Assembly (NCBI GenBank): GCA_027046105.1
Contig: JALTZQ010000227.1
Location: 1-28,771, forward strand
Length of the DNA: 28,771 nt
Direction: 5' to 3'
Source: Pyrodictiaceae archaeon
GTDB lineage: Archaea > Thermoproteota > Thermoprotei_A > Sulfolobales > Pyrodictiaceae
The position numbers and the translations under genes are program-made. The notes under the pieces were generated by a model that was given only the letters and a program-made list of their open reading frames with translations, did no database searches and had not been told where the DNA came from. Position 1 is the first letter of the stretch; the number at the start of each line of letters is the position of its first letter. Below are positions 11,264 to 21,378 of the stretch, piece by piece.

Positions 11264-12703
11264 TTAAAACAATGTTCTTTGACCTTTATTTGACCGAGTA
11301 CGGGAAGATCTCCTCCGTCTACTAGTTGTTCCCGTACTAGTTCGACGCTCCAAACTAGTTTTTCTCCCACTTAGCATTGGCTGCACTGTCTTACTACTTG
11401 AACTTATAGTAACCGCCTCAGATACGCCCTCCCTAAGTTTTCTAACATAACCCATTACTTCATTCGCCATAGGTCCTGCAAGGTACTTAATCATTCCGTC
11501 AGTGAAATTGTATGCTATGGCTATTTTTGCTGCTAAATCAGGTCTTTCGCGAAATATTACTAGCAGATAAGGCAAAACATCGTTCTTCACTGTTGCTTTA
11601 GACATGTGCAATCTACGAGCCAAATGCTCAGCTATAGCTTCACGTACTTCTCGTGCCTCTTTGGTGCGTGCCATAAGTATTATTTTTTGTGGATATTGGT
11701 ATTTTGCCCAACGAAACCTACTTTTCTTTCTAGATAAGGCTACGCCAGGTCCAGCTAGATCGAAGACATATGAGAGTAAATCCCATGAGAGCGTTTTTCT
11801 TATGCGTCCAAGGTATTGATCAGCTCGCGCTAGTGCCTCATGTGCGCGCCAAACGTCTTCAAGATCAGTATATTGGTTTGCTATGTTCTCGTTAATCCAT
11901 TCTATAAGAGTCTCGTAATCTAGATTAGTATGTGTCACTGCTCGTTTAGCTTGCCAAGCATATTTTGACAAAAATAGGTTGCGTAACATTTCCCAAGGAT
12001 TATACTCTCTATCTCTACCAGAAACAAGTGCCTTCGCAATTCCTAGTGTAACTCTTCCATATCCCTCTGCAATTGCTTGTAAATCATTAATAGCAGACCT
12101 TAAATCGCCTTCAGCCCTTGAAGCAATGTACTTCAATGCATCTTCTTCACATTCTATTCCCTCAATACTGCATATCTTTTTAAGTACAAGGACTATGTCT
12201 CGTTCCGAGAGCCTATTAAATCCGATTAGGAGCGATGCATCACGAAGCGGTTTAAGCTTTTGATCCCAAGGATCATTGGCTGTCATTACAATGGGATGAT
12301 TTGTAATCGATATCAATTCTAATATAGCATCTAATCCCCCTTTATCTGCAGTACCAGATATGCCATCAACTTCATCTAGTAATATTATCCTTTTACGCCC
12401 AAATAAGCTGGATTGGGTAGCTGCTATTTTTGCCACTCTTTCAATATCTTCCTTTCTACGAAAATCAGAAGCATTCATTTCAACAAGCTCTAATTTATAC
12501 TCGTGGGCCGCTGCCTCAACAAGACTGGTTTTACCTACACCCGCGGGCCCATAAAGTAATGCTGCCTTTTTTTCAGGTATACGGCCACTGAGCCATTGTT
12601 GTAACCATGGAATGAACTGCCTCTTGGCTTGCTCCTGGTTTACTACCTCATCTATTTTTTTAGGCCTATACTTTACTATCCAAGGTATATGCCTATAAGC
12701 CAA
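11264..12703 (-). CDS. rfcL: Replication factor C large subunit
   Basis: Clamp-loader subunit that works with RfcS to place PCNA on DNA. From the chosen start, Walker A is GPAGVGKT (residues 52-59) and Walker B is ILLDEVD (107-113). Typical motifs [21 protein letters not shown] and [10 protein letters not shown] are present. The C-terminus is a Ser/Thr/Arg-rich basic tail ending in KGQRTLF, a PCNA-interacting motif at the very end. I chose TTG 12703 (479 residues) because GGTGGGGA lies about 11 bases upstream and homology starts at once. A GTG at 12754, overlapping the rfcS end, would add 17 residues but lacks a clear ribosome binding site. It is downstream of rfcS in one operon. Confidence 0.95.
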
Positions 12704-12737
12704 AATACTATCCCCACCTATTGTTAAGGCCCTGCTA

Positions 12738-13724
12738 CTAGGCTGGTGTACCACGAAGCTTCTTACCCAGCAACGATAACCAAGCTAGAAATGCATTCAA
12801 TTGTATCTCGTCATCCGCACCTTCTACTAATCTAAACTGTATTTCACCAGCATAATCAGCTATCATGACACGAAGATCTTCTGGAAGTTTCAATTCATTA
12901 CTAAACACTTCCCTATGTATTTGTTTTATTACATCCGTACCACTAAGCCCGTAATTTATCATCAATTGTCTAAGCTTATTCCTAGCCTCCATGAAATTAC
13001 CGTCAAGAGCAAGTTTTATCATTTCTCTTATCTCCCTAGGATGGGCTAACCCTACAACTTTATACACTGTTTCTGGAGTCACTCTACCTATTGCAGCTGC
13101 AGCTTGAAGTATATTTATTGCACGACGCATGTCACCCTCACTAACCTCATATATTGTTTCAAGTCCTTCCTCAGTATAGATACATCCTTCTTGTTCACAT
13201 ATCAATTTGAGACGGCCTATTACATCTTCTTTTTTCAGCGGCGTAAACCGGAATAGTGCACATCTAGACTGAATAGGCTCAATAATTTTGCTTGGATAAT
13301 TTGCTATTAAAATGAATCTAGTGGTTACAGTGTACATCTCCATTAACCTTCGGAGAGCTTGTTGTGCATCAGCAGTCATGTTATCTGCTTCATCAAGCAA
13401 AACTATCTTAAAGGGAACATCTTGTGGTGGACGGCTTCGGGCGAATTCTTTAACTTTGGTTCTTATGGTGTCAATACCACGCTCATCGCTAGCATTCAAC
13501 TCCAGCATAAACTGCATATAGTTTTCTCCATATAGGTCGTGTGCCAGGGCATGCGCTGCAGTAGTCTTACCAGTGCCCGGAGGGCCTACAAATAGAAGAT
13601 GCGGCATATTCTTTTCCTCAACAAACCTCTTAAGTCTTCTTACGACTTCTTCTTGATTAACAATCTCATCAAGACTTCTTGGTCGATATTTTTCTGCCCA
13701 TAGGAGCTCAGAAATACTACTCAC
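12738..13724 (-). CDS. rfcS: Replication factor C small subunit
   Basis: Clamp-loader ATPase, normally four copies per RFC complex. It has [19 protein letters not shown], Walker A GPPGTGKT (47-54), the DEAD box LLDEADNM (Asp111-Asp114), sensor 1 in LIANYPSKI, and the SRC motif QSRCALFRF carrying the arginine finger. The 328-residue length is normal, with no intein. The start is GTG 13724 with a strong GGGGAGGAG directly upstream on the minus strand. It heads the rfcS-rfcL operon and is divergent from gins23-mcm across 97 bases. Confidence 0.97.
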
Positions 13725-13821
13725 TTACTCCTCCCCGCTAAGCTAGATTCTATGCCTTGAACTCCAACCTATATTAAGGCTGCGAGCCAACTATAATCAA
13801 CCACTATGGGACGAGCGGATA
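13725..13821. promoter_or_regulatory. Divergent promoter region between RFC and GINS-MCM operons
   Basis: The 97-base space contains CTATATTAAG at 13769-13778. This is TATA-like on both strands and almost equidistant from the rfcS GTG (about 48 bases) and the gins23 ATG (about 50 bases). A second AT-rich element, ACTATAATCA at 13790-13799, is about 28 bases before the gins23 ATG and could instead drive a leaderless transcript. The minus-strand leader carries GGGGAGGAG for rfcS. Confidence 0.45.
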
Positions 13822-14400
13822 ATGGATATAGCAAGTATAGCTAAAAGTACAGTTGAACTCTACTTAAAGGCACAGAACTTATACTACGAAGTGAAACCTA
13901 CAAGAGTTATGGTTGTCAAAGATTTCGGGAGGATAACCGTTGATGGCTTTACAATGGAATTACAAAAAGGTACTGAAATAGAGCTTCCCAGATGGGTAGC
14001 CCGAATCTTATCTGAGGATGGTATTGCAGAGATTGTAGAAACAGGAATAGGAATTGAAGATATAGCACGTATACATTTTACAGTAGTATCAGCAAAGAAT
14101 CCTGCAGAGCTAGAACCCTTACCAAAAGACTTCTACAAACAAGTAATTGAATACTTAGACGGTCTTGAAAAAAGAATAAGAGCTGAGTTCAATCCTGCAC
14201 TATTAGAGGAGAAGCAACGCATCCTAATATATCTTGCAGAAATACTAAACAAACGCCTTACGCTAATACTCACTGCACTTAGAAGCCCAACCGCCATAGC
14301 TGAACTATCAACGAAACTATCAGATGAGGAAAGGATCCTACTAGAAATTCTACATAAGGTACTTGAAACATGGCGATTAAACATGACACCAAAGAGGTGA
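13822..14400 (+). CDS. GINS complex subunit Gins23
   Basis: Component of the CMG-like replicative helicase that holds MCM together with GINS and a Cdc45/RecJ protein. The small beta B domain comes first (about residues 20-75, VKPTRVMVVKDFGRITVDG), and the helical A domain follows (about 90-190). This B-then-A order is that of the Gins23 class; Gins51 has the reverse. The 192-residue length fits. Its stop overlaps the ribosome binding site of mcm, and a gins23-mcm pair is known in Sulfolobus. GINS sequences diverge strongly, so the call rests on both domain order and the mcm neighbour. Confidence 0.88.
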   Translation: MDIASIAKSTVELYLKAQNLYYEVKPTRVMVVKDFGRITVDGFTMELQKGTEIELPRWVARILSEDGIAEIVETGIGIEDIARIHFTVVSAKNPAELEPLPKDFYKQVIEYLDGLEKRIRAEFNPALLEEKQRILIYLAEILNKRLTLILTALRSPTAIAELSTKLSDEERILLEILHKVLETWRLNMTPKR

Positions 14401-14407
14401 TTATACT

Positions 14408-16495
14408 ATGAGCATAACTGTTGCTGAGGCAGAAGAGATCATAGATGTTAGAGAAAGATTCTATGAATTCCTAAGGAGTTTTAGGGATAGGTACGGTAAC
14501 TATAAGTATCAAGAAAGAATAAAGCAGATGATAACTATGGGACAAAGAGGATTAATAGTCGATTTCAACGATATCTACATATTCGATACAAGACTGGCAC
14601 ATGCGTTTATAAACACACCCGATGTAGCATTACGACAAGCTTCTGATGCCCTTAGAGAAGCTATTGTACAAGAAAATCCCGAGTATGCTGAACAAGTCCA
14701 AAAATTCAGTGTCAGAATAAGGGGCTTGCCACGCACAACACCATTGAGAAAAATACGCAGTGAATTCATAGGCAAACTCGTAATGATAGAGGGCATATTG
14801 GTTAGATCCACACCAGTTAAGGAGAAGATAGCAAAGGCCCGATTCCTTCACTGCACAGATGAAGGTTGTCACGAATTTGACTGGCCCGACGACGAAGTCG
14901 TTGGAGAATACATTGAGAAACCACCACTTTGCCCAGTTTGTGGAAAGAGAAGTGGCCAACTCCAGCTATTGCCTGAAAAATCACAATTTATAGACTGGCA
15001 AAAAATAGTTATACAAGAAAGGCCAGAAGAGATCCCCCCAGGACAACTGCCACGAAGCATAGAAGTTGTTTTAACCGATGAACTAGTTGATAGTGCAAGG
15101 CCAGGAGATCGTGTAGCAATAGTGGGCGTTGTACGTGTAAGACCAGATTCCATATCCAAAAAAAGGGTAATATACGAGCTTTTCATTGAAGCAAATCATC
15201 TTGAAGTTTCACAAAAGGTTCTAGAAGAGGTAGTTATAACGAGAGAGGATGAAGAGAGAATAAAACTACTTGCACGTGACCCATGGGTTAGGAAGAAAAT
15301 CATAGCTAGCATTGCACCTGCAATCTATGGTCATTGGGATATAAAGGAAGCCATAGCACTTGCACTCTTTGGTGGCGTGCCCAAAGTAACAGAGGATGGA
15401 ACACGTATACGTGGAGATATACACATTCTCATAGTTGGCGATCCCGGCACTGCTAAGAGCCAACTGCTCCAATACGCTGCGCGTATAGCGCCGCGAGGTA
15501 TCTATACTACAGGTAAGGGTGCAACCGCAGCTGGGCTAACTGCTGCTGTTATACGAGATAAGGCCACTGGAGAATACTATCTCGAAGCCGGTGCACTTGT
15601 CCTCGCTGACGGCGGTGTTGCCGCCATAGATGAGATAGACAAGATGAGAGACGAGGATAGATCAGCAATCCACGAAGCCATGGAGCAACAAACGGTAAGC
15701 ATCGCTAAGGCAGGAATAGTGGCACGGCTAAATGCAAGAACAACTGTTATAGCTGCAGGCAATCCCAAATTTGGCCGCTATCTACAGAATAGAACACTAT
15801 CCGAGAACATTAACTTGCCCGTAACTATATTGTCAAGGTTCGACCTAATATTCATACTAAAGGATAAGCCGAACCCAGAGGAAGACAGAAGACTAGCAAG
15901 CCACGTTCTACGTGTACATAAGGAAGCCGATAGAATCCGACCCGAAATACCACCAGACCTCCTAAAGAAGTACGTAAGCTATGCAAGAAGATATGTCAAG
16001 CCGAAACTAACTTCTGAAGCACAAAAACTACTGGAAGACTTCTACGTAGAAATGAGGAAAATTGGAGCTGATAACCCAGAAGCACCTATAGCTATTACCG
16101 CTCGCCAATTAGAGGCACTTGTGAGACTTGCAGAAGCACATGCACGTATGGCTCTTAAAAACGAAGTAACAGCAGAAGATGCAGAAGCAGCAATAAGACT
16201 AATGAAGTCATTCCTCGAAAGAGCAGGACTAGATGTGGAGACGGGTAGGATAGACATAGATGTCATAATGACGGGCAAGCCCAAGAGTAAACAAGAAAAG
16301 TTCTCACGCATACTAGAGATTATAGAACAACTCGAAAGTGAAAGCGACGAAGGATGTGCAAAAATCAAAGAGATTGTGCGTAAAGCAGTGAGTGAAGGCA
16401 TAGACTCCTCAATAGTTGATGAAGCCTTAAAAGTATTTAGTAGAGAGGGAATGGTCTTCGAGAAAAGTGTTGGTTGTTACGCCATTGTACGCTAA
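14408..16495 (+). CDS. mcm: Replicative DNA helicase MCM
   Basis: Hexameric 3'-5' helicase that unwinds DNA at the fork. The N-terminal domain has a zinc site formed by Cys149, Cys154, Cys175 and Cys178. The AAA+ core has Walker A GDPGTAKS (344-351), Walker B AIDEID (406-411), sensor 1 AAGNPK (449-454) and the arginine finger in SRFDLIF (Arg477). A C-terminal winged helix covers roughly the last 80 residues. At 695 residues it is of normal length, with no intein. The ATG is preceded by GAGGTGAT at 14394-14401, a full-length Shine-Dalgarno match that includes the gins23 stop. The 3' end overlaps a convergent small gene by four bases. Confidence 0.98.
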   Translation: MSITVAEAEEIIDVRERFYEFLRSFRDRYGNYKYQERIKQMITMGQRGLIVDFNDIYIFDTRLAHAFINTPDVALRQASDALREAIVQENPEYAEQVQKFSVRIRGLPRTTPLRKIRSEFIGKLVMIEGILVRSTPVKEKIAKARFLHCTDEGCHEFDWPDDEVVGEYIEKPPLCPVCGKRSGQLQLLPEKSQFIDWQKIVIQERPEEIPPGQLPRSIEVVLTDELVDSARPGDRVAIVGVVRVRPDSISKKRVIYELFIEANHLEVSQKVLEEVVITREDEERIKLLARDPWVRKKIIASIAPAIYGHWDIKEAIALALFGGVPKVTEDGTRIRGDIHILIVGDPGTAKSQLLQYAARIAPRGIYTTGKGATAAGLTAAVIRDKATGEYYLEAGALVLADGGVAAIDEIDKMRDEDRSAIHEAMEQQTVSIAKAGIVARLNARTTVIAAGNPKFGRYLQNRTLSENINLPVTILSRFDLIFILKDKPNPEEDRRLASHVLRVHKEADRIRPEIPPDLLKKYVSYARRYVKPKLTSEAQKLLEDFYVEMRKIGADNPEAPIAITARQLEALVRLAEAHARMALKNEVTAEDAEAAIRLMKSFLERAGLDVETGRIDIDVIMTGKPKSKQEKFSRILEIIEQLESESDEGCAKIKEIVRKAVSEGIDSSIVDEALKVFSREGMVFEKSVGCYAIVR

Positions 16496-16752
16496 GACTC
16501 ACTTAGACAACCATCTCTCTGAAGCCTTATTCTCCATAAAGAAACAGGTGTCCACATTATCCATGCTGGAATATGTTTTATGAACTCATAGGCCTCTTCC
16601 CAATTCTCAAGGCCAAGCTTATGCGCAAATTCCTCTAAACTCATAGGCCTATGAATGTACTCATGTACAACCTCTAGTACCTCCGGCGTTATCATTATCT
16701 CTTTTTCTCCAACCTTTACCACATACTCTCTACATTTCTCTGAAGCCATCAC
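16492..16752 (-). CDS. Conserved-looking hypothetical protein of 86 residues, convergent with mcm
   Basis: I do not recognise a family. The sequence is coherent and charged, with a helix-rich part (ITPEVLEVVHEYIHRPMSLEEFAHKLGLENWEEAYEFIKHI). This could be a helix-turn-helix followed by a short strand (AWIMWTPVSLWRIRL). No signal peptide or membrane segment is present. Start options are GTG 16752 or ATG 16749, the next codon. GGGGTGAT lies about 13-16 bases upstream and GGGAT immediately upstream. A TATA-like element sits at a suitable distance. Its stop overlaps the mcm stop. Codon use and length support a real gene; a role in replication is only suggested by position. Confidence 0.7.
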   Translation of the reverse strand: MMASEKCREYVVKVGEKEIMITPEVLEVVHEYIHRPMSLEEFAHKLGLENWEEAYEFIKHIPAWIMWTPVSLWRIRLQRDGCLSES

Positions 16753-16785
16753 GTATCCCTAGAAATCACCCCTTCATACCCAGTA

Positions 16786-16797
16786 GCTTTAATTGTT
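16786..16797 (-). promoter_or_regulatory. Candidate promoter of the 86-residue gene
   Basis: On the minus strand AACAATTAAAGC (16797-16786) resembles a TATA box. A start about 26 bases downstream would fall near 16765, leaving a short leader before the GTG/ATG at 16752/16749. This suggests the gene need not be read from transcripts passing through the GC-rich island upstream. Confidence 0.35.
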
Positions 16798-16804
16798 TAC
16801 TATT

Positions 16805-16887
16805 GGGGCGGTACCCGGGGGCGGAAGTTCTTGCGATAACATCAGCGGGTTATCCTTCAGCGCTGGAACGCGCGGGCATCCCGCCCC
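16805..16887. ncRNA. GC-rich structured RNA candidate with nested stems and an H-type pseudoknot
   Basis: This 83-base intergenic island has 56 G or C in otherwise AT-rich DNA, the classic sign of structured RNA in AT-rich hyperthermophiles. Perfect pairings are: P1 GGGGCGG (16805-16811) with CCGCCCC (16881-16887); P2 CCCG (16814-16817) with CGGG (16873-16876); P3 GTTC (16827-16830) with GAAC (16866-16869). Inside lie GATAAC (16835-16840) with GTTATC (16849-16854) and CAGCG (16843-16847) with CGCTG (16861-16865), which interlock as a pseudoknot. Strand is unresolved. Plus-strand loop lengths (2, 1 and 6) suit a pseudoknot. A minus-strand TATA-like CATTATTTTATGG (16930-16918) would start a transcript about 10 bases before P1. 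It is not a tRNA. A plus-strand ACA lies at 16891-16893, so an H/ACA guide is possible but its pocket looks small. No codon-like ORF explains the island. Confidence 0.6.
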
Positions 16888-16960
16888 TAGACAAATGCTG
16901 TTCACAATGCACTACTACCATAAAATAATGCTAGCTATACCGCCAGTATACTTAATTAAG

Positions 16961-17521
16961 TTATCTCTTCTTAACATGCTTGTCAAGAATGTTAATTAAG
17001 TTACCATAAATTTCGTCCACAATATGATCCCTATTTTCTAAGGTGACAGTAAACCATATGCCATATCTATCGAGTAATGGTTTTATACGTGCATCAGAAA
17101 GTCTGTAATGAGCGACAAGTATTCCGGGATGATTCATGCCAAGCAAATACTCTATAGCTTTTCTTATTTCAACCATCCTTAACTCCATAGGCCCTATTTC
17201 ATCGATAGCTATGACATTAGCATTACTACTCTGTTCGAGAACATAGTGTACCACTTTTACAGCTTCACTACATAGACGATACTTACCTATACGTGGTCCA
17301 CGACAATCCTCAATTTTAGCTAACCAAGTCTCAACAACGCCATCAATACTCCTTATTTTGAACCCTACTCTTCTCCCTTCACTGCGTACTTCAGGGCATA
17401 TAAAACCAACAACACTATAACCTTTATTTAATAGTCTATTGACAACCTTAGAGAATACCGTTGTTTTCCCAATTCCTGGACGGCCTGTTATCACTACAAA
17501 TCGTTTAATGGTTTTAGCCAT
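16961..17521 (-). CDS. THEP1-family nucleoside-triphosphatase
   Basis: P-loop NTPase of the THEP1 family, which hydrolyses ATP, GTP and other NTPs in vitro; its cellular role is unclear. Walker A is GRPGIGKT (residues 13-20) and the Walker B region is VIAIDEIGPMEL (103-114), a strong family signature. At 186 residues it matches the family. I chose ATG 17521 because GGTG lies eight bases upstream on the minus strand. An ATG at 17539 would place that GGTG inside the gene. It follows the permuted GTPase gene on the same strand with a gap of about 40 bases and is probably in the same unit. Confidence 0.93.
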   Translation of the reverse strand: MAKTIKRFVVITGRPGIGKTTVFSKVVNRLLNKGYSVVGFICPEVRSEGRRVGFKIRSIDGVVETWLAKIEDCRGPRIGKYRLCSEAVKVVHYVLEQSSNANVIAIDEIGPMELRMVEIRKAIEYLLGMNHPGILVAHYRLSDARIKPLLDRYGIWFTVTLENRDHIVDEIYGNLINILDKHVKKR

Positions 17522-17559
17522 ACATCCAACACCTATCATAGTAACATAATGAAACCTTG

Positions 17560-18384
17560 CTAGATCAGTGATCTAGTTACTCTATGTAGAGACCTTGTAA
17601 GATATTCCTCTGGTGGTACATAAAATCTCAATTTGCCCTCATGGTAATCACGAATGACAACTCGGGCAGCTTCTTCAACAAGTGGTTCACCGTCACTTTT
17701 ATATTTCCATCCACGTCTAAGAGCGATTAGCTCAAGTATACGATAGGGATCTTTTTCATCGATACCGTAAGCCTCCTTGACTGCTAAAGGGTTGTACTTC
17801 AACGCTCTTTCAAGTAACATTAATGCTGGCTTTACAGGGTCATTAAGTTGTTCGGGGGGACGTCCACGTATTATAGATTCTAGTGGATCGCCCTCGACCG
17901 GGATTATACCTGGCGTATCTATCATATACAAATTCTCGCCAATTCTATATAGTTGTGCTTGCCTTGTGTAACCGGGGCTACCAGGTATTGGGCTCGTTGA
18001 AGCTGAGTGTTTACCCTTTAGGGCATTAATTATCGTTGACTTACCCGTCTTTGGAAATCCTACAACCGCAACAATAGCTGGACTTACTTCCACAAGCTCA
18101 CGTATAGTTCTTCTTAGTATGCGTGTACCTTTTCTGTCACGAGCTGCAACATAAACACACCTATACCCTCTATCATTAAATAACTTCTTCCATTTTTCCG
18201 CAACATTTCGCGGAACAAGATCAGACTTATTTATAACTATTAACAGCTTCTTGTTAAGAGACATCGCTATTCTCTCAAGTCTCCGACTATGTGTAACCAT
18301 AGGGTCTCTTGCATCAACAACCTCCAACACTATATCAGCTCTTCTTATAATCCACGTTATGCTTCTCCACGACGCTAATATCAT
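17560..18384 (-). CDS. Circularly permuted GTPase, YlqF/RbgA-Nog type
   Basis: Ribosome-assembly GTPase family with G motifs in the order G4-G5-G1-G2-G3. G4 is NKSD (52-55) after VVDARDP; G1 is GFPKTGKST (109-117); G2 lies in GSPGYTR; G3 is DTPG (156-159). A helical C-terminal domain follows. Related proteins act in late large-subunit assembly (RbgA in bacteria, Nog2/Lsg1 in eukaryotes), so a 50S assembly role is expected by family. At 274 residues it is full length. GGGGGAG lies upstream of the ATG. It is downstream of polB, 61 bases away, on the same strand. Confidence 0.92.
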   Translation of the reverse strand: MILASWRSITWIIRRADIVLEVVDARDPMVTHSRRLERIAMSLNKKLLIVINKSDLVPRNVAEKWKKLFNDRGYRCVYVAARDRKGTRILRRTIRELVEVSPAIVAVVGFPKTGKSTIINALKGKHSASTSPIPGSPGYTRQAQLYRIGENLYMIDTPGIIPVEGDPLESIIRGRPPEQLNDPVKPALMLLERALKYNPLAVKEAYGIDEKDPYRILELIALRRGWKYKSDGEPLVEEAARVVIRDYHEGKLRFYVPPEEYLTRSLHRVTRSLI

Positions 18385-18445
18385 CTAGCTTCGCTCCCCC
18401 ACTATCATGCCAGTTTTTCTATCTTAATGCAAACTATTCATATAC

Positions 18446-20860
18446 TTACCTCTTTGACTGTTTGGACATAAAATCAAATAGGCTTCTCCTGACTGATGCT
18501 GCTACTTTCAATTGCTTATCTGTAACACCAAAGTAGCCAAGTATTCTTAACGCCGCTGGAACTACTTGGTGATCAATGTAATAGTCTATGTCGATCTGTT
18601 CCGGCTTGACCATAAAATAAGGCCATGCCCTATTAGAGATCTTGCCCCTTCCTTTAACGATTATGTACCCTATTTTCTCGCCAGGTACAACCTTATAACC
18701 TGCCTCTTTCATTCGTTTAGCTGCCATGACATGTGGCGCCTCAGTTTCGTAATCCTCTACTCTTTTTGTAAGAGTCTTCCATATTACGAGCTTCTCTATA
18801 GGCACACGATAATTTTTTAGTTCTGAAATCAGTTTTCTGACATAATTAATCGCTTCATTTACATGACCCGTAGTTAAAACTATTTCAGCAACCTTAGCTT
18901 GAGTCTCCTTGGCTAGTTCACACCAGTCTCCCCTTACCGCCTCAAAACCAACAATATCTATTCTACCATCCTCTAGCAGGCCAGCATATCTCTTCTTTGC
19001 CTCAGTAAAGAAGACCCTTTTGTAAATCTTATCTATTTTTATTTCGAAGCCTAACTCTTTTTCAACGAATTCAATAAGCCTTTCTACTTTATCGGGATCG
19101 TGCTTTACAAATAATGAGTCCGTATCACCATAAATAACTTTTAAGCCAAGTTTTCGAGCATAATCTATTACTGTAAGAATTAACTGACGACCCCAAGCCG
19201 TTACGGCCTCCGCACAGCGTAAACAATACCATCTAGCACCGGTCCATCCCATATATCCATAGCTTGCATTTGCAAGTATCTTGAGGGCTTTTTGCCTCTC
19301 ATCTAGTAAACGGTAATTCGGATCATCGGGACTATATTTTTTCATCTCGTTCCTTACTCTTTTTCGCAATTCAATAAGGTTTTGAAGTACGATTTTAAAG
19401 AATCCTGGTGGGTTTCTACGAAATCTGTGCCCCACTTCTGGTGCAGTATAACAACCTCCATATTTTTCACACTCATCCGGAGTATCGACTATAGTATCTG
19501 GACCGACATTGTACTTTATCATTATATTGGGATACATTGAACTAAAGTCCAGTACCGCTACATTCTCGTGCACCCCGCGAAGCGGTGAAAGTACTATCGC
19601 TCCACGATAGCTCTCTCCCCTTCGCTCAACACGGTTAGGTACTAATTCATTCATGTCGTACGCTGCACGGATCAAATACCATTCTAGACGAAAACCTACA
19701 CTCATTGCGCCAACTTGATCTAAAGGAACACCAGTAACATGAGATAATTGTATAGCGTAAGGCAGCAATTTTTCCGAGAGCCCATAGGTAGCTCTTACAT
19801 CATCTAACACATATCTTACTAATATGCTTCGTTTTTCCTCCTTCTCCCAGTATTCTGGTATTTGCCACCATTCAATATTTACACGTTCATTCCTACTCAT
19901 AACACCAAGATATTCCGCAACTTCTTCTAATGTCTTAACCTTTATTTCATGCATCTCTTCAGCATAATCATATAGATCAACATTTAATCGGCCTTGGATG
20001 GAAACGTGGCCGTGTACGCTCATTGATGGCTCGGCACCAATCCTACGTGACACATCAAGCTTAATGCCATTTATCCTTGCACGCTCAAGAAGATACGGCC
20101 AATCAAACCTATTACTATTATAGCCAACGATAATATCCGGATCATAACTACGTACATATTCAACAAAATCGGTAATAACTTCTTTATCACTATACATACC
20201 TTTGCCCTTATCCACTGCTTCAAAGACTCTTTCTTCATTCCTCGTTCTTACCCCTATAAGTATTATAGGATCACGGCTAGCCAGCGGTGAGCCATGTTTT
20301 GAATAAACCTCAATATCGAATGCAAGTACTCGTAAGTTAGGCAAATCTCTTCGGTCTAAAGGCTCGATGTTACCCACTATCTTATATACTCTTGACACAC
20401 GAAATCCATGCTGACGGCCCAAATCAACTACTTCCATGCGATACCAGCCAAAGGGAAAAAGCCTCTTGTCAATGATATACCTCATTGCAAACCTTATATC
20501 AGCCTCAAGAACATCCTCTACCTCGCTCATTTTCCTAATTTCTTCACGATACTCCCTAACAGCCTCCGGTACAACAGTTTTTATCTTCAGAGCTTTACGA
20601 GGTTTACCAAAAAATCGCTTATTGACAACATCAATTGACATTATTGGGCTCTTAGGCTTGCTTAGACCACGAATTTTAGACACTATATCGTTGACTCTAT
20701 TCTCGAAACTATGAGACACTAATGCATAAAAGTATGGCCTAAAATCCTTATCAAAAACTACTACCCTTTCACCATTACCATTGATACCCCACAGTATGAC
20801 TACGGGTTCACGACCTATTATCTCATAGCTTGAGTCCAAGAATAAAAAGTCTATCTTCAA
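18446..20860 (-). CDS. Family B DNA polymerase
   Basis: Replicative or repair polymerase with 3'-5' proofreading. Numbered from the chosen start, exonuclease motifs are FDIEVYS (Asp182, Glu184), GYNSNRFDWPYL and YVLDD (about 350-354). Polymerase motifs are A DFSSMYPNI (438-446), B KILANASYGY (527-536) and C YGDTDS (577-582). Near the C-terminus VRRSLFDF resembles a PCNA-binding motif. There is no intein. I chose TTG 20860 (804 residues) because homology to Pyrodictium-type enzymes begins with KIDFLFLDSSYEI and a GGGGGAT lies about 12 bases upstream. A GTG at 20902, overlapping the rimI stop, would add 14 unconserved-looking residues. Which crenarchaeal B paralog it is (PolB1 or PolB3) is not settled here. 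Confidence 0.95.
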   Translation of the reverse strand: MKIDFLFLDSSYEIIGREPVVILWGINGNGERVVVFDKDFRPYFYALVSHSFENRVNDIVSKIRGLSKPKSPIMSIDVVNKRFFGKPRKALKIKTVVPEAVREYREEIRKMSEVEDVLEADIRFAMRYIIDKRLFPFGWYRMEVVDLGRQHGFRVSRVYKIVGNIEPLDRRDLPNLRVLAFDIEVYSKHGSPLASRDPIILIGVRTRNEERVFEAVDKGKGMYSDKEVITDFVEYVRSYDPDIIVGYNSNRFDWPYLLERARINGIKLDVSRRIGAEPSMSVHGHVSIQGRLNVDLYDYAEEMHEIKVKTLEEVAEYLGVMSRNERVNIEWWQIPEYWEKEEKRSILVRYVLDDVRATYGLSEKLLPYAIQLSHVTGVPLDQVGAMSVGFRLEWYLIRAAYDMNELVPNRVERRGESYRGAIVLSPLRGVHENVAVLDFSSMYPNIMIKYNVGPDTIVDTPDECEKYGGCYTAPEVGHRFRRNPPGFFKIVLQNLIELRKRVRNEMKKYSPDDPNYRLLDERQKALKILANASYGYMGWTGARWYCLRCAEAVTAWGRQLILTVIDYARKLGLKVIYGDTDSLFVKHDPDKVERLIEFVEKELGFEIKIDKIYKRVFFTEAKKRYAGLLEDGRIDIVGFEAVRGDWCELAKETQAKVAEIVLTTGHVNEAINYVRKLISELKNYRVPIEKLVIWKTLTKRVEDYETEAPHVMAAKRMKEAGYKVVPGEKIGYIIVKGRGKISNRAWPYFMVKPEQIDIDYYIDHQVVPAALRILGYFGVTDKQLKVAASVRRSLFDFMSKQSKR

Positions 20861-20895
20861 GGGAGCCTTACATCCCCCATACAGTAAATAATGAT

Positions 20896-21378
20896 TTAAC
20901 ACTCATTAATTATCTTAACCATGAGAATTGCATGGTCGTTTTTACCATAGTAATTTGGTAATACACGCAAGGGTTTATATCCATGGGCCAAATAAAACTT
21001 TTGTGCAACATAGTTGTGATACGCGACTTCTAGCACGATAGCTTTATATCCCTCCCTTTCACACGCTGTTTCAAGCACCTTAAGTAGTCTAGAGCCAATG
21101 CCTTTACCTCTATACTCGCGCTTTACAGCTATGCTTATTAGGTGACAAAAACCTTGCCGAGCTAATCCAACAATGTAGCCTACAACATTTTCTTTACAAA
21201 CAGCCTTAAAGAACATGTTAGGGCTTATACTGTATAAGAAGCGTAAATACCAATAAGGATAAGCTTGTTTACCAAAAACTTCTACCTCAACACTATATAT
21301 TAGTGGTAACTCATCCTCTTCAACTAAATTTATGACAACATCAACGCATTCCACTTCGCACCAACCACATTGAATCAC
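20896..21378 (-). CDS. GNAT-family N-acetyltransferase, RimI/Ard1-like
   Basis: Transfers acetyl from acetyl-CoA, in this family usually to protein N-termini. The acetyl-CoA loop is REYRGKGIGS (Arg90-Gly-Lys-Gly-Ile-Gly95), preceded by the beta strand HLISIAV. The closing motif YVAQKFYLAHGYKPL is typical of RimI/Ard1 proteins. Length is 160 residues. GTG 21378 is the assigned start; GTG 21354 is a possible shorter one. The gene ends within a few bases of the polB start region on the same strand and probably shares a transcript with it. It is divergent from pelota. The exact substrate is not predictable. Confidence 0.9.
   Translation of the reverse strand: MIQCGWCEVECVDVVINLVEEDELPLIYSVEVEVFGKQAYPYWYLRFLYSISPNMFFKAVCKENVVGYIVGLARQGFCHLISIAVKREYRGKGIGSRLLKVLETACEREGYKAIVLEVAYHNYVAQKFYLAHGYKPLRVLPNYYGKNDHAILMVKIINEC

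Follow-up and report, generated by a model that had tools for sequence, protein, structure and literature searches.

A conserved GC-rich element in a replication gene cluster of a Pyrodictiaceae archaeon probably encodes a diverged homologue of box C/D guide sRNAs

The stretch of DNA that we analysed (28,771 nucleotides from a Pyrodictiaceae archaeon, contig JALTZQ010000227.1; here called the window) contains a replication gene cluster at 11264-20902, in which Pfam recognizes AAA/RFC-like, Rep_fac_C, mcm and family B DNA polymerase genes. A 192-amino-acid ORF at 13822 in this cluster has no Pfam match at 1e-6. A short GC-rich element, 16805-16887, sits between two minus-strand genes, one for an 86-amino-acid protein (16492-16752) and one of the NTPase_1 (THEP1) type (16961-17539). 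Beyond the former, the next gene is mcm (14408-16495, plus strand). The 86-amino-acid protein has no Pfam match, yet close relatives of it adjoin mcm in two other loci (L164 and L181). The element has a GC content of 0.675 (56/83) compared with 0.412 for the window and ranks first among the 28,688 overlapping 83-base stretches of the window, which bears out the GC richness described in the earlier note on this DNA. Its folding energy is unremarkable for its composition on either strand (z -0.74 on the plus strand, -1.54 on the minus strand). What rises above chance is its conservation, visible as long invariant blocks across the first nine aligned sequences.

The earlier note could not assign the element to a known RNA family, and our Rfam search of the window agreed, giving no match at the gathering score. 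Up to E 10 there were two matches, both at chance level; the better one, RAGATH-10 on the plus strand, scored 14.1 bits against the 41.2 needed (E 2.5). Phage records searched with the element gave no match. ARAGORN found no tRNA or tmRNA in the window, so these identities were ruled out. An H/ACA sRNA was rejected by eye only: there was no constant ACA 3' of the closing stem and no conserved upper stem in alignment A4.

Copies of the element are present in related genomes. Among the best 80 of 321 loci from a THEP1 protein search, blastn detected a copy directly downstream of THEP1 in eight (L001, L002, L003, L004, L006, L007, L009 and L011). The weakest of these, in L011, had an E-value of 1.35e-4, and all other matches were at E ≥ 0.85. 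Ten of the 13 genomes of loci L001-L013 match the element at E 10 or better. In locus L008, THEP1 is present and so, judged by eye, is the 86-amino-acid gene, but there is no copy between them, and a search of its genome gave no match to the element. At the level of the order, a DNA similarity search matched 16 of 197 genomes at E 0.01, and covariance model R1, built from 17 sequences, matched 42 of 214 at E 0.1. Model R2 (31 sequences) matched 55 of 229 genomes of the class at E 0.01. Within a sample of the phylum, 15 of 398 matched at E 0.001, and all 15 were already among the class-level R2 matches. The GC-rich element is real and conserved. Additionally, the RNA adjoins other genes in G010, G031 and G185. 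Thus, it is more than just a leader for the 86-residue gene, a role that the earlier note had considered.

The RNA most likely lies on the minus strand. Among 423 helix cells in counted pairs, 48 are G-U when read on the minus strand (A-C on the plus strand), compared with 11 of the reverse kind. This wobble asymmetry, together with a D'/C' kink-turn motif that appears on the minus strand, is the basis for our choice, and it argues against the plus-strand reading of the earlier note. Promoters alone cannot decide the strand because AT-rich peaks of equal height (0.71) occur on both sides of the RNA. One peak, in 17 aligned loci, is about 35 bases before the RNA on the minus strand and corresponds in the window to the promoter-like element ATTATTTTAT (16920-16929). 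The other is about 10 bases beyond the opposite end and may serve the 86-amino-acid gene.

Read on the minus strand, the RNA extends from closing stem to closing stem over 16805-16887, with approximate ends that rest on a covariance-model match at 16800-16891 and on the conserved blocks. The closing stem, P1, pairs GGGGCGG (16881-16887) with CCGCCCC (16805-16811); 95.1% of its cells are paired and three of its four counted pairs show two-sided changes. These results support the structured RNA with a closing stem that the earlier note proposed and show that the stem is conserved. By alignment, 90 of 112 closing-stem cells are paired in A3 and 173 of 208 in A4, and all seven positions are paired in 6/16 and 12/30 relatives respectively. 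The inner helix (helix 2) is weaker, with 77.4% paired across 31 sequences. Over the whole structure, 87.0% of cells are paired and the covariation score of 0.298, against 0.120 in shuffles, was reached by 0 of 500 shuffles; two of five covariation measures failed against the shuffles (the number of pairs with two-sided changes was reached by 73/500 and the number of pair types by 186/500), and all the covariation figures are flattered, as the alignment had been fitted to the structure model. In two rows, L109 of A3 and L139 of A4, MAFFT put the C' box in the wrong place; both rows were retained.

Inside the closing stem, the order on the minus strand is CUGA (box D', 16857-16860), a loop (16845-16856) that varies from 4 to 18 nt in A4, and UGAUG (the box C' core, 16840-16844), which is the D'/C' kink-turn motif. 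Box D' is CUGA or CCGA in all 31 sequences of A4. The tandem pairs between the boxes are G.A in 31/31 and A.G in 30/31 sequences, and the pair after them is U.U in 20, U-A in 5, C-G in 3, C.U in 2 and U.C in 1. These internal boxes are predicted to form a kink-turn or K-loop, as expected of a box C/D sRNA. Such sRNAs also keep a constant distance of about 12 nt upstream of D'; here this distance, counted from the terminal helix and not from a box C, amounts to 12 gap-free columns in 31/31 sequences. Near the 5' end, at the place of box C (RUGAUGA), the window reads GGGAUGC, and near the 3' end, at the place of box D (CUGA), it reads CGGGUA (16812-16817), with CGGGU opposite GCCCG (16873-16877). 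Among the 33 members of the family that share the window's D guide, none has a consensus box C and none a consensus box D.

The D' guide, GCGCGUUCCAGC (16873 to 16862), is 12 nt long and ends one base before box D'. It is perfectly complementary to GCUGGAACGCGC of 16S rRNA (E. coli 738-749), where the 16S targets were read in the 16S of relatives, not in the window's own. A perfect 12-mer at the place of the D' guide occurred in 8 of 5000 shuffles of the RNA, and one anywhere in the RNA in 453 of 5000. Besides the D' guide, the window RNA contains another perfect 12-mer, to the 23S of one relative, and we take this match as chance. Fourteen genomes were examined, 13 of them with a readable 16S stretch, and in 12 of these 13 the genome's own D' guide keeps at least 10 unbroken 16S pairs. 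The D+5 rule predicts G741 (E. coli number) as the methylated base. One genome, G208 (L188 1682-1735), which is likely a metagenome assembly, lacks six 16S bases exactly at the D' guide target; this gap is either an assembly fault or real. The D' guides of L162, L176 and L180 differ from the others, and no 16S was found in the corresponding assemblies (G099, G114 and G016).

A second conserved strand, CUUCCGCCCC (16827 to 16818), forms nine Watson-Crick pairs and one G-U with 16S 655-664 in 9/9 genomes that have CUUCCGCCCC and a readable site. We take 16S 738-749 and 655-664 to be the 3' and 5' strands of helix 22. The calculated energy of CUUCCGCCCC is -19.8 kcal/mol for 655-664 compared with -13.4 for 760-769. 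CUUUCGCCCC, the D guide of other members, matches 16S 760-769 at 10/10 positions in 3/3 genomes read, and its energies are -17.9 kcal/mol for 760-769 and -17.0 for 655-664. The D guide of L181, CUUACGCCCC, has a mismatch to both sites. In genomes with readable 16S, site 655-664 is identical in 12/12 and site 760-769 in 12/13. Because the 16S sites are nearly invariant among these genomes and only the guide varies, no guide-target covariation could be demonstrated. The published rule for a guide asks for an unbroken run of nine or more Watson-Crick pairs with rRNA that includes the +5 base (PMC4644070). The D' side agrees with this rule, with at least 10 pairs in 12/13 genomes, whereas the D side falls short of nine, with at most seven in a row plus one G-U.

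The wider family connects the window RNA to box C/D sRNAs. The 56 members of alignment A5, a count that includes one probable false positive with neither guide strand intact (L179), contain eight with consensus boxes C and D (L164, L169, L171, L172, L173, L176, L177 and L181). Their model E-values are modest, from 9.6e-6 to 7.6e-3. The sequence GCGUUCCAGC is kept by 52/56 members and is common to seven of the eight with full boxes, L176 having GCGUUCCAAC instead; the D guide ends in CGCCCC in all eight. The RNAs of L164 and L181 each have an mcm gene (Pfam MCM) on one side and, on the other, a gene for a protein homologous to the 86-amino-acid one of the window, at 64% over 75 residues in L164 and 51% over 72 in L181. 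The D'/C' motif and these members point to a kinship with box C/D RNAs, a class to which the earlier note could not match the element. D guide CUUCCGCCCC is found in 33/56 members, and all of these lack consensus boxes C and D. D guide CUUUCGCCCC is found in 15/56; box D is of the CUGA or CCGA type in 14 of them, and box C has its consensus form in 6. This coupling of the D-guide letter to box loss may reflect one event in one clade.

In the position of box C, the window RNA has a GAU bulge followed by G (16877-16880), opposite an A at 16812, which together may form a kink-turn-like element. The three-nucleotide bulge and the first G.A are retained in 29/31 sequences, and the second pair varies, being C.U in 12, A.G in 11 and of other kinds in 8. 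The sequence of intermediate members, GGC-GAU-GA-CC / GG-G-GA-GCC, resembles in our view that of Kt-7. The window type retains the GAU bulge and the first G.A and has C.U as its second pair. The aligned series suggests a slide of the terminal element by which RUGAUGA became a GAU bulge followed by GA. According to PMC5061560, there are kink-turns, such as Kt-23, that are non-standard at the second pair. This RNA family is like Kt-7 and Kt-23 in having a three-nucleotide bulge and then G.A, and like Kt-23 in having U or C at position 2n. Unlike both, the window type has C at position 2b, so its kinking is only putative, and we refer to its terminal element as a putative kink-turn.

Based on these comparisons, we believe that the RNA is very probably a minus-strand, diverged homologue of an archaeal box C/D guide sRNA and that it pairs with 16S rRNA. 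It shares with these sRNAs the internal CUGA/UGAUG, the 12-nt guide before D' and the rRNA complement over the D+5 base, and some of its relatives have full boxes. It is unlike them in that both box C (RUGAUGA) and box D (CUGA) are missing from the window, and in its long GC-rich closing stem and variable spacing on the 3' side. The two outer boxes would thus have disappeared from this homologue, and a single letter of the second guide would have changed. Points against this reading are the missing boxes, the frequency of perfect 12-mers anywhere in shuffled RNAs, the gap at the target in G208, the short D-side pairing, the two covariation measures that shuffles reach and the modest E-values of some full-box members. 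Archaeal box C/D sRNAs bind L7Ae, Nop5 and fibrillarin and direct 2'-O-methylation. In our model, the RNA would be transcribed on its own from the minus strand and L7Ae would bind the internal D'/C' kink-turn. The D' guide would pair with the 3' strand of helix 22, where a fibrillarin complex would methylate G741; guided 2'-O-methylation of this base is on balance probable. Meanwhile, the CUUCCGCCCC strand would cover the 5' strand of helix 22. One RNA could thus hold both strands of the helix during assembly and so may act as a chaperone. More tentatively, we suggest a two-part change in a hyperthermophile clade, about which we have more doubt than confidence: the terminal kink-turn would have slid by one GA repeat (GAUGA) to a Kt-7/Kt-23-like form within the long GC-rich stem, and the one-letter change from CUUUCGCCCC to CUUCCGCCCC would have shifted the best 16S target away from 760-769 and onto the 5' strand of helix 22, so that what had been an ordinary dual guide came to clamp both strands of the helix.

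It is also conceivable that the same RNA no longer guides methylation and acts purely as an L7Ae-bound folding chaperone that clamps helix 22. The absence of consensus outer boxes from all 33 members with the window's D guide is consistent with such a function, as is the coverage of both strands of one 16S helix. Dual guides on opposite strands have been proposed as chaperones before: in PMC4644070, sR15 and sR17 of N. equitans are described as C/D box sRNAs with a proposed chaperone function at 16S helices 30 and 28. The window RNA is like them in that its two guides cover opposite strands of a single 16S helix, and unlike them in its target, helix 22, and in having no boxes C and D. However, D', C' and the 12-nt spacing are intact, as they should be if guiding by the D' side continues, and we consider a complete loss of guiding unlikely.

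We think it very improbable that the RNA is a cis-acting kink-turn element of the THEP1 or 86-amino-acid mRNA, bound by L7Ae. Its place between two minus-strand genes in the window is compatible with this possibility, and binding of L7Ae to archaeal transcripts has been published (PMC5539422), but the RNA is found beside different genes in G010, G031 and G185, and L008 carries both neighbours, the 86-amino-acid gene as judged by eye, without it. The pseudoknotted plus-strand RNA of the earlier note fares marginally worse still. The complementary words themselves are present in the window, both the closing pair GGGGCGG/CCGCCCC and the two pseudoknot stems, GATAAC (16835-16840) with GTTATC (16849-16854) and CAGCG (16843-16847) with CGCTG (16861-16865). 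The second AT peak and the sub-threshold RAGATH-10 match are likewise on the plus-strand side. However, each pseudoknot stem is fully paired in none of the 16 relatives in A3 and none of the 30 in A4, and for this reason we rejected the pseudoknot. The paired base changes that the earlier note had suggested looking for in its stems appeared in the closing stem, and the wobble asymmetry of 48 to 11 again favours the minus strand.

Our preferred reading, a diverged box C/D homologue, has consequences for how such RNAs are found. Box C/D RNAs are usually detected by their boxes; thus, box-less members would escape such scans, and the window RNA escapes Rfam too. In the consulted text of archaeal C/D sRNA surveys and related papers (PMC4644070, PMC7994747 and PMC5061560), neither this RNA nor a helix 22 target is named, and an orthologue may already be catalogued, for instance in the supplementary sRNA lists. 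The family ranges from full-box to box-less forms while the 16S target of its D' guide stays constant, and it therefore provides a natural series for the role of the terminal kink-turn. This series also bears on a possible role of guide RNAs as chaperones of rRNA helices at high temperature.

Some further features were seen in the relatives. In one genome the 16S match is split (G117:C7:244-412 and 1057-1288), with a distance of 644 bases between adjoining parts of the query, the pattern that an rRNA intron would produce. By eye, the mcm ORF of L164 (1590-3089) appears to begin within an intein, with …LILHN ahead of the MCM sequence, and Pfam detects only the C-terminal part of MCM in it. An Rfam scan of 18 relative loci returned tRNA matches only, and 11 of the 18 have a tRNA gene of 106-120 bases, a size that would accommodate an intron, within a few kb of the sRNA (for example, L164 114-222 and L146 1916-2021).
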